In this document: positions 26,510 to 30,121 of the stretch, one piece after another
Numbering within the stretch: the stretch's first letter is position 1
How the letters are laid out: every line of letters starts with the position of its first letter
Assembly (NCBI GenBank): GCA_030447305.1
Contig: JAUJPC010000004.1
Location: 124,001-188,000, forward strand
Reading direction: 5' to 3'
Source of the DNA: Actinomycetota bacterium
GTDB lineage: Bacteria; Actinomycetota; CADDZG01; JAHWKV01
Length of the DNA: 64,000 bases
Position numbers and translations under genes: made by a program
Notes under the pieces: generated by a model
The model's input: only the letters and a program-made list of their open reading frames with translations
The model's database searches: none
What the model was told of the DNA's origin: nothing

Positions 26510-26629
26510 ATGACTCAATACGACACCGACCCCGACTTCTGGGCCAAGGGCGACCGGCGGCCCAACATTCGGAAGTCCGTCAGGTACAGCTTCAGACGTT
26601 TGCTCAAGCTGGCGGGACTGGCGAACTAG
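26510..26629 (+). CDS. Small basic protein (39 aa)
   Basis: An AAAGGAGG ribosome site lies 8 bases before ATG 26510. The product begins MTQYDTDPDFWAKGDRRPN and ends in an amphipathic basic helix (IRKSVRYSFRRLLKLAGLAN). The strong ribosome site and composition argue for a real small gene; the family is not recognised. Confidence 0.6.
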   Translation: MTQYDTDPDFWAKGDRRPNIRKSVRYSFRRLLKLAGLAN

Positions 26630-26721: not shown

Positions 26722-26747
26722 GATATATGAACAACCAATCATATATC
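26722..26747. promoter_or_regulatory. Operator-like inverted repeat upstream of the ArsR/SmtB gene
   Basis: GATATATGA, eight bases (ACAACCAA), then TCATATATC form a perfect 9-bp inverted repeat ending 10 bases before the regulator start. SmtB/CzrA-type operators are A/T-rich imperfect 12-2-12 repeats containing TGAAC, and TGAAC is present in the left arm. It also overlaps the likely -10 region, so bound regulator would block transcription. Confidence 0.7.
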
Positions 26748-26757
26748 GGAGCACCTG

Positions 26758-27114
26758 ATGGCCGGTCGCACAAGCTTCGCACCAACTGCCCGGGCCGAGG
26801 GCCGCCGTGATCCTTCGGTGATCCCGGTCGAGGAAGCCCGGCGGCTCGCGCAGATGTTCCAACTCTTTGCCGACTCCACCAGAGCGCGCATCCTGTATGC
26901 CCTCTTGGAGGCCGAGGAGATTTGCGTCAACGACATCGCGGCTGCCCTCGAGGTCCCAGAGACATCCGTCTCCCACGCGCTGAGGCTGCTCCGGATCGCA
27001 GGGGTGGTGAAGAACCGACGTGCCGGCAGGCTCATCTACTACAGCCTGGACGACGAGCACATCAGAATGCTTCTCAGCACATCACGCGAGCATCTGGCCC
27101 ATCACGTCCGATGA
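26758..27114 (+). CDS. SmtB/ArsR-family metal-sensing repressor
   Basis: A winged-helix repressor expected to release DNA on binding zinc or a related metal. The dimer and DNA-binding parts are FADSTRARILYALLEAEEICVNDIAAAL (the ICVND stretch corresponds to the ELCVxDL alpha3 motif) and the recognition helix ETSVSHALRLLRIAGVV. The C-terminal alpha5 site DDEHIRMLLSTSREHLAHH has the Asp/His and His/His spacing of zinc-sensing members. Start is ATG 26758, and its stop overlaps the CDF transporter start (ATGA), so they are one operon under the operator at 26722. Confidence 0.9.
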   Translation: MAGRTSFAPTARAEGRRDPSVIPVEEARRLAQMFQLFADSTRARILYALLEAEEICVNDIAAALEVPETSVSHALRLLRIAGVVKNRRAGRLIYYSLDDEHIRMLLSTSREHLAHHVR

Positions 27115-28088
27115 TCGAGCAGAACGGCCATCCGCACAGCCACGAAACGGAGGAGGCCCACACCCACCCCAATTCGGGAGAACACCCCACCCACTCCCAC
27201 GATCACATCGCGGATGCCATGCGCACCGGCAACCGCAGACGTCTTCTGGGAGCTTTCCTGGTCACCCTGGTTTTCCTGTTCGTCGAGGTTGTCTTCGGAA
27301 TCCTCTCCAACTCACTCGCATTGTTGTCCGACGCCGGCCACATGCTCACGGACGTCCTGGGGCTCGGCATGGCTCTGGCCGCCATGCAGCTCGCCGGTCG
27401 CCGGCACAAGGATGCTCGCCGGACCTACGGCCTGTACCGCCTGGAGATCCTTGCGGCATTGGCGAACGGGATCCTGCTGTTCGGGGTGGGTGCCTACGTT
27501 CTTGTCGAGGCCGTCCGCCGGCTTCTGGATCCGCCTTCCGTTGCCAATCTCACCATGCTGCTGGTGGCGGTGGGTGGCCTTCTCGCAAATTTGGTGGCGT
27601 TCGCCCTGCTCCGGGGAGGGGCGAACGACAGCCTGAACCTCAGGGCTGCTTATCTTGAAGTGGTGGCGGATGCCCTGGGCTCCGTGGGGGTAATTGTCGC
27701 TGCAGTGGTAATGCAGCTCACGGGCTGGCCTTATGTGGACCCGATTGCGGCAGCGGCGATTGGGCTGTTCATACTGCCGAGGACCTGGCGGCTGACCGGC
27801 CAGGCGCTGCGAATCCTGGTGCAGGCGGCTCCCCCGCACCTGGACCTCGACGAGCTGTCGCAGGCGCTCTTGGAACTGGAGGGAGTGGTGGACGTGCACG
27901 ATCTACACTGCTGGACCCTCAGCTCCCAGATGGAGGTTGCCTCCGCCCACCTGAAGGTATGTCGCGGTGCTGATGCCGCCGTCATCCTTCGCTCCGCCAG
28001 AACTGTGCTCGGCGATCGGTTCTCAGTTGGCCACGCGACACTGCAGATCGAGGACGAAACCGCCGACTGCCGAGACTGCTCATGGTAG
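27111..28088 (+). CDS. CDF-family zinc/cation efflux transporter
   Basis: 325 residues, proton-coupled exporter of Zn2+ or similar ions. The N-terminus is His-rich (NGHPHSHETEEAHTHPN). Six membrane helices follow, with metal-site pairs in LALLSDAGHMLTDVLGLGMA (helix II, HxxxD) and YLEVVADALGSVGVI (helix V, D-x2-D-like). Helix IV-V loop and the cytoplasmic ferredoxin-like domain (VVDVHDLHCWTLSSQMEVASAHLKV) are as in CzcD/ZitB. The adjacent metal-sensing regulator supports zinc export; the next gene starts inside its last codons. Confidence 0.92.
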   Translation: MIEQNGHPHSHETEEAHTHPNSGEHPTHSHDHIADAMRTGNRRRLLGAFLVTLVFLFVEVVFGILSNSLALLSDAGHMLTDVLGLGMALAAMQLAGRRHKDARRTYGLYRLEILAALANGILLFGVGAYVLVEAVRRLLDPPSVANLTMLLVAVGGLLANLVAFALLRGGANDSLNLRAAYLEVVADALGSVGVIVAAVVMQLTGWPYVDPIAAAAIGLFILPRTWRLTGQALRILVQAAPPHLDLDELSQALLELEGVVDVHDLHCWTLSSQMEVASAHLKVCRGADAAVILRSARTVLGDRFSVGHATLQIEDETADCRDCSW

Positions 28089-28627
28089 GGACCCGTCGCC
28101 TCGCTGCGCTGTGCTGCATCTTCCTGGCTTCATGCTCGGGTGACGGCGGCCCCACCGAGTCCTTTCCCTCCCCCTCCGGTGAGGAGCTGAATCCGGCCCA
28201 TCGCGCAGATTCCGAGTTCTTCAACTTCACGGCATCGCGCCTGGGTGGCGGCGGGCAGGTCACCGGCGCCGAGCTACAGGGCAAGGACGTGGCGTTGTGG
28301 TTCTGGGCCCCCTGGTGAATACCTTGCCGGCATGATGCGCCGATGGTCGCGCAGGTTGCGCGAGATTACGGGGACAGGGTGACCTTCTTTACTTCACCCG
28401 GGCAGGACAACCAGGCAGCGATGCAGCGGGCGGTGAAGGACTTCCGCTGGCCGGCGACCATGATCCATGCCATCGACGAGAACGGGCGCCTGTGGAGACA
28501 TTTTGACGTCGCGTACCGAGGCGCGTGGATTTTCCTCAACGACGACGGAACCGTTCTCGAGCAAAGCCTCACTCACATAACTGAGGACGAAGTTCGAAGG
28601 AACCTGGACCGGCTGATCGAGAGCTAG
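28082..28627 (+). CDS. TlpA/thioredoxin-fold lipoprotein with in-frame TGA at the redox centre (candidate selenoprotein)
   Basis: The frame from ATG 28082 encodes a lipoprotein signal (AALCCIFLASC), a Ser/Pro linker, and a thioredoxin-like strand VALWFWAPW, then TGA at 28316-28318, then IPCRHDAPMVAQVARDYGD and an unbroken 103-codon continuation to 28627. The TGA sits exactly where the first Cys of WCxxC belongs, giving U79-I-P-C82. Downstream elements (WPATMIHAIDENGRLW, GAWIFLNDDGTVLEQ) keep the thioredoxin-like pattern, though Gly replaces the usual cis-Pro. A hairpin lies 18-35 bases after the TGA. Selenocysteine insertion is the best reading; a nonsense mutation of a Cys codon is the alternative. 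The start overlaps the end of the CDF gene. Confidence 0.75.
28336..28353 (+). promoter_or_regulatory. Candidate bacterial SECIS hairpin
   Basis: TGCGC and GCGCA form a 5-bp stem beginning 18 bases after the TGA; with a bulged C, GA/TC extend it and leave a TGG loop 26-28 bases after the TGA. Bacterial SECIS elements place a short loop with G in its first two positions about 16-37 bases downstream. No software check was possible. Confidence 0.45.
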
Positions 28628-30121
28628 TTGTTGCAACACCGCCTTTCCGTGCCGCGGTGGCTGCGCGTCACCGTTGTCGCCGCCGTCTTTTCCCTGGCCT
28701 TGACCGCAACCGCGGTCCGGGGAGAGTACGATCTCGGTCCCGGGAAGATACAGGTCAGCATGCGCCCGCAGTGGAAGGGCGAGACGGTCGTCGCGGTCCC
28801 CCCCTTCGGATCGGTAGCGGCGTCAACCCACCGGGCCCCGCTGGCAGTGATCCTTTCCCCCACCTCGGTGGATCCACTGAGCGCCCAGAGGCTGGTGGAG
28901 AGCCGGCCGAACGAAAAGGCTCTGGTCGCCAGCCTGCGAGCGGATCTGGAGAACGCCTTCCGAGAGTACGCCCTCCGGGTCCTTCTGGGAGGTCTGGTGG
29001 GCGCGGTGATTGCTGCCGGCGTGGCCCGGGCCCGAACGCCGGTGGAGTTCTTGGCCGCCATGGGAACGGGGGCGCTCTTGCCGCTCGGTCTCTACGTGGC
29101 CAGCTTCGCCGGATACAACGTCGGCGCGTTCCGCCAGCCCACCATCACCGGTGCGCTCAGCCGCTCACCCGAGCTGCTTGGTCCGGTCCAACAGTTCGGC
29201 GAGCGGTTCCACGCCCTGCGCAACGAGCTTGACGAGATCGGCTCCATCACCTTCCAGCTCTATCAGTTCCTCGCCGAGCAGTCTCCGATACCCGAGGATG
29301 CCGTCCGGATACTGCACATCTCGGACCTCCACCTGAACCCGGTGGGCTACGACGTCGCCCAGCAGGTGGCCACCCGCTTCAAGGTCTCGGCTGTCATCGA
29401 TTCAGGGGACGTCACGGCTGAGGGCTCGCCCGCGGAGGTTGGGTTCGTCGAGCGCATCGGTGGCTTCTCGATTCCGTACTTCTTCATCCGTGGCAACCAC
29501 GACTCCCCGATCACCCAACAGGCGGTGGCGGCCCAGGCCGACGCCGTGGTGCTGGACGGGAATACCGCGGAGGTGGAGGGCCTCACCATCTTTGGACTCG
29601 GCGACCCGCTGTTCACGCCGGACAAGACGGTGGAGCAGCCGACCAACGAGCAGCAGCGAGATGCCAAGCTCGAGTTCGCCAAGGGCGCTAAAGATCGGAT
29701 GGAAGCCTTGCCGGACATCCCGGACATCGTGGTGGTGCACGACAAGCTCACCGCGAGCAGGCTGCATGGCAGCGTGCCACTTGTTCTTCACGGCCACGAA
29801 CACAAGTGGTCGGCCCGGGATGTGGAAGGCACCCGAATCCTCGGCGTCGGCAGCACCGGAGCCGCCGGCCTCAAGTCGCTTGCTCCTGAGTCCAACAGTG
29901 CAATCGCTCTTCAGGTTCTCTACTTCGAGCGGTCCAACCAAACCCTCTTGGGATACGACCGCATAGAAGTGAAGGGCTCCAGCCAGCAGTTTCTCTTGAA
30001 GCGGACGATAGTCGCGTCACAGGAGCCGGAGGAAGCCGAGTCGCCGGCGAGCCGGGGGCCGAATTCCACGACTGAGCCGCCCTTCATAGAAGTTCCGGAG
30101 GCTGCGACGCCCTCTCCGTAA
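28628..30121 (+). CDS. Membrane-anchored calcineurin-like metallophosphoesterase
   Basis: 497 residues from a TTG directly after the preceding stop. An N-terminal helix (LRVTVVAAVFSLALTATAV) and a second hydrophobic segment near residues 116-160 flank an extracytoplasmic region. The catalytic domain starts near 222: ILHISDLHLNP (DxH), VIDSGDVTAEG (GD), FIRGNHDSP (GNHD), VVVHDKLTASR and LHGHEHKWS (GHxH), a complete set of binuclear metal ligands. The C-terminal 40 residues are Pro/Glu/Ser-rich. The immediate adjacency to the TGA-containing gene suggests cotranslation within the zinc operon. Confidence 0.85.
   Translation: MLQHRLSVPRWLRVTVVAAVFSLALTATAVRGEYDLGPGKIQVSMRPQWKGETVVAVPPFGSVAASTHRAPLAVILSPTSVDPLSAQRLVESRPNEKALVASLRADLENAFREYALRVLLGGLVGAVIAAGVARARTPVEFLAAMGTGALLPLGLYVASFAGYNVGAFRQPTITGALSRSPELLGPVQQFGERFHALRNELDEIGSITFQLYQFLAEQSPIPEDAVRILHISDLHLNPVGYDVAQQVATRFKVSAVIDSGDVTAEGSPAEVGFVERIGGFSIPYFFIRGNHDSPITQQAVAAQADAVVLDGNTAEVEGLTIFGLGDPLFTPDKTVEQPTNEQQRDAKLEFAKGAKDRMEALPDIPDIVVVHDKLTASRLHGSVPLVLHGHEHKWSARDVEGTRILGVGSTGAAGLKSLAPESNSAIALQVLYFERSNQTLLGYDRIEVKGSSQQFLLKRTIVASQEPEEAESPASRGPNSTTEPPFIEVPEAATPSP

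Follow-up and report, generated by a model that had tools for sequence, protein, structure and literature searches.

Computational analysis of the window, a stretch of 64,000 nucleotides from an Actinomycetota bacterium, revealed a gene with a recoded, conserved TGA, the selenocysteine (Sec) decoding machinery in the same genome, an RNA hairpin 3' of the TGA and a conserved operon. With a probability of about 95%, as judged from the sequence, positions 28082-28627 (+ strand) represent one intact selenoprotein gene, encoding a Sec-containing thioredoxin-fold lipoprotein. By direct reading, the frame starts with ATG at 28082 and ends with TAG at 28625-28627, and the TGA at 28316-28318 (+ strand) is the sole stop codon between them. 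The readthrough product comprises 181 residues when the TGA is counted as Sec (Sec79). The TGA is located at the first position of the CxxC motif, within the active-site line ...ALWFWAPW-U-IPCRHDAP..., and the reading bore out the original prediction of an uninterrupted WFWAPW-U-IPC frame preceded by a lipoprotein signal.

The protein carries, as judged by reading, a signal sequence with a lipobox of the form [LVI][ASTVI][GAS]C, namely L-A-S-C at residues 15-18 (Cys18), and LASC was also read in three congeners. The UIPC active site, a CxxC/UxxC motif, is present in all four congener genes, including that of the window. Redoxin (PF08534) was the best Pfam match (E 4.5e-8, above the cut-off), followed by Thioredoxin (E 9.8e-7), and both matches span the TGA. 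In the NCBIfam search, no model reached its cut-off; the best was ResA, with 46.7 of the 170 bits. An AlphaFold model computed without an alignment had a pLDDT of 43 and was too poor for use.

It had been proposed that selA, selB, selC and selD should be sought in the genome, and all four were identified when the assembly (2.88 Mb, 7 contigs, 98% complete) was searched by family. These comprise a tRNA-Sec of 77.1 bits, assigned by ARAGORN as tRNA-SeC with anticodon TCA, a SelB of 327 bits, a SelA of 517 bits adjoining selB, and a SelD of 376 bits. The selD gene (L019, G000:C4:131572-132504) contains its own in-frame TGA, in ...SHGAG-U-ACKLG..., followed by a hairpin 3' of this codon; SelD proteins are known to carry Sec at this codon, in the form UxxK (PMC13188914). 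TGA also serves as a normal stop codon here, terminating the ArsR gene described below. A reassignment of TGA in the genetic code was rejected, since, of the 28 long frames in the window that look like genes, 15 end in TGA.

Relatives of the Sec gene were gathered by genus, family, class and phylum searches. In all three congeners examined (G003, G004 and G005), a TGA occupies the identical codon, and the encoded proteins share 67-71% identity with the window protein. The distance from the TGA to the stop codon is 306 nt in all four congener genes, and dN/dS 3' of the TGA ranges from 0.08 to 0.18 across all six pairs; strong purifying selection acts on the 102 codons that follow the TGA. The suggested inspection of this column in homologues returned either TGA, in 32 distinct genes (the window gene, its three congeners and 28 others), or Cys, in 29, with conservation on both sides of it. 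The 32 TGA genes are divided into 24 with a W(F/L/M)(W/Y)(A/T)P(W/H) line, including the window gene, and 8 more distant ones with NFWESW-U. For instance, a further family member (G001) is a TGA gene with WAPW-U-PHC. The NFWESW-U-xxC genes (L053, L055, L057 and L094-L098) form a distinct class-level group in which TGA replaces the first Cys of CxxC, and this group also has Cys members (L060, L068).

In a maximum-likelihood tree, the Sec label requires 5 changes, compared with 20 when the labels are shuffled. The Sec rows adjoin Cys rows that include MPT53-like proteins (L092 and L093, sister group), and these two Cys forms (WFWTPWCPFCNAEAP) are almost identical to the MPT53 line, a resemblance suggesting that the phylum is Actinomycetota. 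A second type of Sec thioredoxin-like lipoprotein was also observed, including a paralogue in G004 (L030, G004:C73:2839-3420), a TGA gene with YAPH-U-PEC. This type (L030, L084 and L085, with YAPH-U-PEC and WAPH-U) is found as a separate starred clade of the tree with one Cys member, and L030 exhibits a very stable double hairpin 3' of its TGA (z -3.3).

Two hairpins were identified 3' of the window TGA, both on the + strand. The first, CGGC-N7-GCCG (28328-28342), folds with a mean energy below that of synonymous shuffles, in which the amino acids were kept and the codons redrawn. Its register varies among relatives, and in Sec genes it often precedes a second, SECIS-like hairpin, TCGCGCA-GGT-TGCGCGA (28347-28363), which extends from TGA+31 to +47 and presents the apical loop GGT, with its G residues. 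The interval 28316-28370, earlier suggested for a SECIS search, does hold this conserved hairpin. Among the 24 WAPW-type Sec genes, a mean of 6.00 of the 7 pairs is formed, compared with 3.82 (sd 0.19) in shuffles that ignore kinship, and the highest mean over 300 shuffles was 4.33. The local energy of the same genes is -9.60 vs -5.01 (sd 0.45), again in shuffles that ignore kinship. In contrast, the 29 Cys homologues form 2.45 pairs, compared with 2.68 in their shuffles, and the hairpin is absent from them. Compensated stems were observed among the Sec genes (GCGCA/TGCGC, GAGCA/TGCTC and TGCACA/TGTGCA), and the conservation of the hairpin in Sec genes exceeds that expected from the protein sequence.

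The NFWESW-U group possesses its own hairpin in a slightly shifted register, with a mean energy of -8.64 vs -2.92 (sd 0.83). Three Sec genes (L074, L080 and L081) pair poorly in the fixed register. The selD hairpin, GGCGCA-GGUCG-UGCGCC, is similarly spaced from its TGA and shares the GCGCA-GGU apex with the window hairpin. When the 58 nt of the window were folded alone, their stability was not above that of shuffles (z -0.26), so the RNA evidence is comparative; a search of Rfam found no family matching the hairpin.

If the TGA were a true stop, the locus would be a pseudogene, or would encode a short N-terminal peptide with the remainder decaying. The regular use of TGA as a stop in the window is in line with this, but the strong selection on the downstream codons, their constant length in four species, the conservation of the TGA itself, the Pfam match that crosses it and the complete Sec machinery make it very improbable. 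Readthrough by ordinary suppression, with insertion of Trp or another residue rather than Sec, would by itself account for the downstream conservation. However, the TGA is always found at the position of the relatives' catalytic Cys, the genome encodes both tRNA-Sec and SelB, and the hairpin tracks Sec genes, not Cys genes, and resembles that 3' of the selD TGA; suppression of this kind is even harder to uphold than a true stop. The least probable explanation is a sequencing or assembly error, in which TGC or TGT was misread as TGA. This had been raised as a possible refutation, and an error is not credible, because four genome assemblies, independent of one another, have the TGA; the 28 other relatives also carry it. 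The selenocysteine interpretation given originally is supported, and the checks on machinery, homologues and assemblies failed to refute it.

The Sec gene is the third of four genes in an operon on the + strand. A perfect inverted repeat, GATATATGA-8 nt-TCATATATC (26722-26747, not assigned to a strand), with 9-nt arms matching at 100%, is a probable ArsR/SmtB operator, and each of the three congeners has the motif ATATATGAACA...TCATA directly upstream of its ArsR gene. It is followed by an ArsR/SmtB-family repressor of 118 aa (26758-27114; Pfam HTH_5, E 1.6e-11), found in the same place in the three congeners with 82% identity, and by a CDF cation exporter of 325 aa with a His-rich N-terminus (27111-28088; Pfam Cation_efflux, E 2.7e-46, and ZT_dimer), with 78-80% identity in the congeners. 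As described previously, the Sec gene overlaps the exporter gene (by 7 nt), and a phosphoesterase frame begins directly after it, at 28628. This frame (28628-30121) encodes a calcineurin-like phosphoesterase of 497 aa, whose start is uncertain (Pfam Metallophos, E 2.8e-11), and it is also found in the same place in the three congeners, with 67-68% identity. A nonsense effect at the Sec gene could plausibly be polar on this next gene. The gene order and the palindrome are kept in the window genome and all three congeners, and ArsR, CDF and phosphoesterase genes were not seen beside the other fetched Sec relatives, for which mostly about 1.5 kb of flank was viewed. Additionally, a small frame (MTQYDTDPDFWAKGDRRPNIRKSVRYSFRRLLKLAGLAN) is present at 26511-26629, upstream of the ArsR gene, and is preceded by a strong Shine-Dalgarno-like GGAAAGGAGGTG; tblastn gave no match to it in the congener stretches examined.

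Zinc is the common substrate of ArsR and CDF pairs. The earlier label of a zinc-efflux operon fits the ArsR and CDF pair with its SmtB-type palindrome, with zinc as the exported metal predicted from operon position.

At the cis-Pro site of the thioredoxin fold, before the third core strand, the four operon copies, and only these, have Gly (YRGA). Other homologues have Pro in nearly all cases, and Ser in L082 and L091. These two Ser-containing proteins read HSSW and EQSR, respectively, and no window-like ArsR, CDF or phosphoesterase was found near their genes. The Gly had been counted against a selenoprotein; the alignment confirmed the residue, but it is no argument against a selenoprotein, since all four congeners share it. 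According to an atlas of thioredoxin folds, the cis-Pro is more conserved than the CxxC motif (PMC2757866), and a passage in this source, citing Su et al. 2007, mentions that the cis-Pro possibly prevents metal binding to CxxC. Without the cis-Pro, ordinary thioredoxin-type substrate handling is less certain.

These features also bear on the possibility that the selenoprotein mainly handles metal, with the Sec/Cys pair binding Zn or another metal at the outer membrane face and the protein serving the CDF exporter as chaperone or sensor. Such a role would suit the ArsR-CDF-Sec operon, present in four of four congeners and not seen at other Sec relatives, as well as the Gly confined to these congeners and the reported, possible blocking of metal binding by cis-Pro. 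The W-A-P-W-U-x-x-C line and the redox fold are otherwise kept, however, and co-transcription is also compatible with redox repair under metal stress, so that we consider mainly metal handling unlikely. Slightly more doubtful is the specific proposal that an ArsR-controlled, cis-Pro-free UxxC binds zinc, or another exported metal, at the outer membrane face and serves the exporter as a sensor or as a chaperone that receives the metal. If this is true, the protein would be a metal-responsive selenoprotein whose thioredoxin fold holds a Sec site that binds zinc.

Most likely, the protein functions as a selenol/thiol-disulfide oxidoreductase that is anchored to the membrane outside the cytoplasm and expressed during metal stress. 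In the proposed mechanism, metal would relieve ArsR repression, leading to production of both the CDF exporter and the Sec protein. The hairpin at 28347-28363 would direct SelB and Sec-tRNA-Sec to decode the TGA at 28316. After export and lipidation at Cys18, the protein would be anchored to the membrane on its outer side. Its thioredoxin fold, akin to DsbE/DsbF (MPT53), may use Sec79 and Cys82 there as a redox pair of the UxxC type. Electrons could be exchanged with membrane partners of the CcdA or VKOR type; two CcdA-type proteins and one VKOR were identified in the genome. The pair would presumably reduce disulfides of envelope proteins and, less likely, form them. That the protein has a specific redox role during metal stress is somewhat more probable than not, and its favoured task under such stress is to act on envelope proteins as a reductase or isomerase.

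Standard annotation would be expected to split or discard the Sec gene, so the redox protein would be missed and the operon would seem broken. The Sec forms of the DsbE/MPT53-like lineage are phylum-wide and under-annotated, and Cys forms are found in mycobacteria-like members; the SECIS hairpin pattern may aid in finding further Sec genes. Furthermore, the conserved association between a Sec redox protein and the putative zinc exporter, with the cis-Pro lost only there, makes a link between selenium redox chemistry and metal export testable.

In a search of solved structures with a six-sequence profile, the best relatives over the thioredoxin domain were two M. tuberculosis proteins, DsbF (Rv1677, PDB 3ios; E 2.9e-30) and DsbE/MPT53 (Rv2878c, PDB 1lu4; E 3.9e-25). 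Both are exported, as predicted for the window protein, and share with it an active-site line of the form WFW(A/T)PW-(C/U)-xxC. They have Cys-x-x-Cys and keep the cis-Pro (QPA), whereas the window protein has Sec-x-x-Cys and Gly (YRGA), as well as a lipobox and an ArsR-CDF operon setting that DsbF and MPT53 do not share. Because the cis-Pro is replaced, we describe the window protein as related to DsbE/DsbF and not as a DsbE/DsbF. The function of DsbF and MPT53 is given as unknown in PMC3792642, and Goulding 2004 and Chim 2010 refer in their titles to disulfide-forming or functionally distinct DsbE proteins. The extracytoplasmic oxidoreductases of the ResA/TlpA/CcmG type also have a membrane-attached thioredoxin-like domain; unlike the window protein, they are Cys enzymes with a cis-Pro, and Cys paralogues of this kind are separate in the window genome (L031, L037).

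UxxC thioredoxin-like and Redoxin (PF08534) selenoproteins appear in reviews (PMC13188914, PMC9312934, PMC2398784). Table 1 of PMC13188914 includes a 'Redoxin family protein' (PF08534, UxxC) and a 'Thiol-disulfide isomerase-like protein' (cd02966, UxxC), and PMC2398784 describes 'Prx-like 3' (pfam08534) and 'Trx-like 1' selenoproteins. The PF08534 UxxC Redoxin selenoproteins match the window protein in Pfam family and Sec position, and for the representatives HEU0032618.1 and MBA3499694.1 (PMC13188914, PMC9312934) the likeness consists of family and motif only. Literature searches on MPT53 with selenocysteine and on selenoproteins in CDF operons returned no description of the gene itself, and none of the papers retrieved describes an ArsR-CDF setting for a UxxC selenoprotein. 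Selenoproteins of metal transport, such as the SO_0444 family Cu/Zn efflux transporter (UxC) and an E1-E2 cation ATPase (UxxC) (PMC13188914), share the link between Sec and metal export. In these proteins the Sec is located inside the transporter itself, whereas in the window it belongs to a distinct lipoprotein, thioredoxin-like in fold, whose gene is transcribed together with that of the CDF exporter. UxxC thioredoxin-like selenoproteins are already known; here the operon setting is new, and the active-site loop, with its cis-Pro lost, is unusual.
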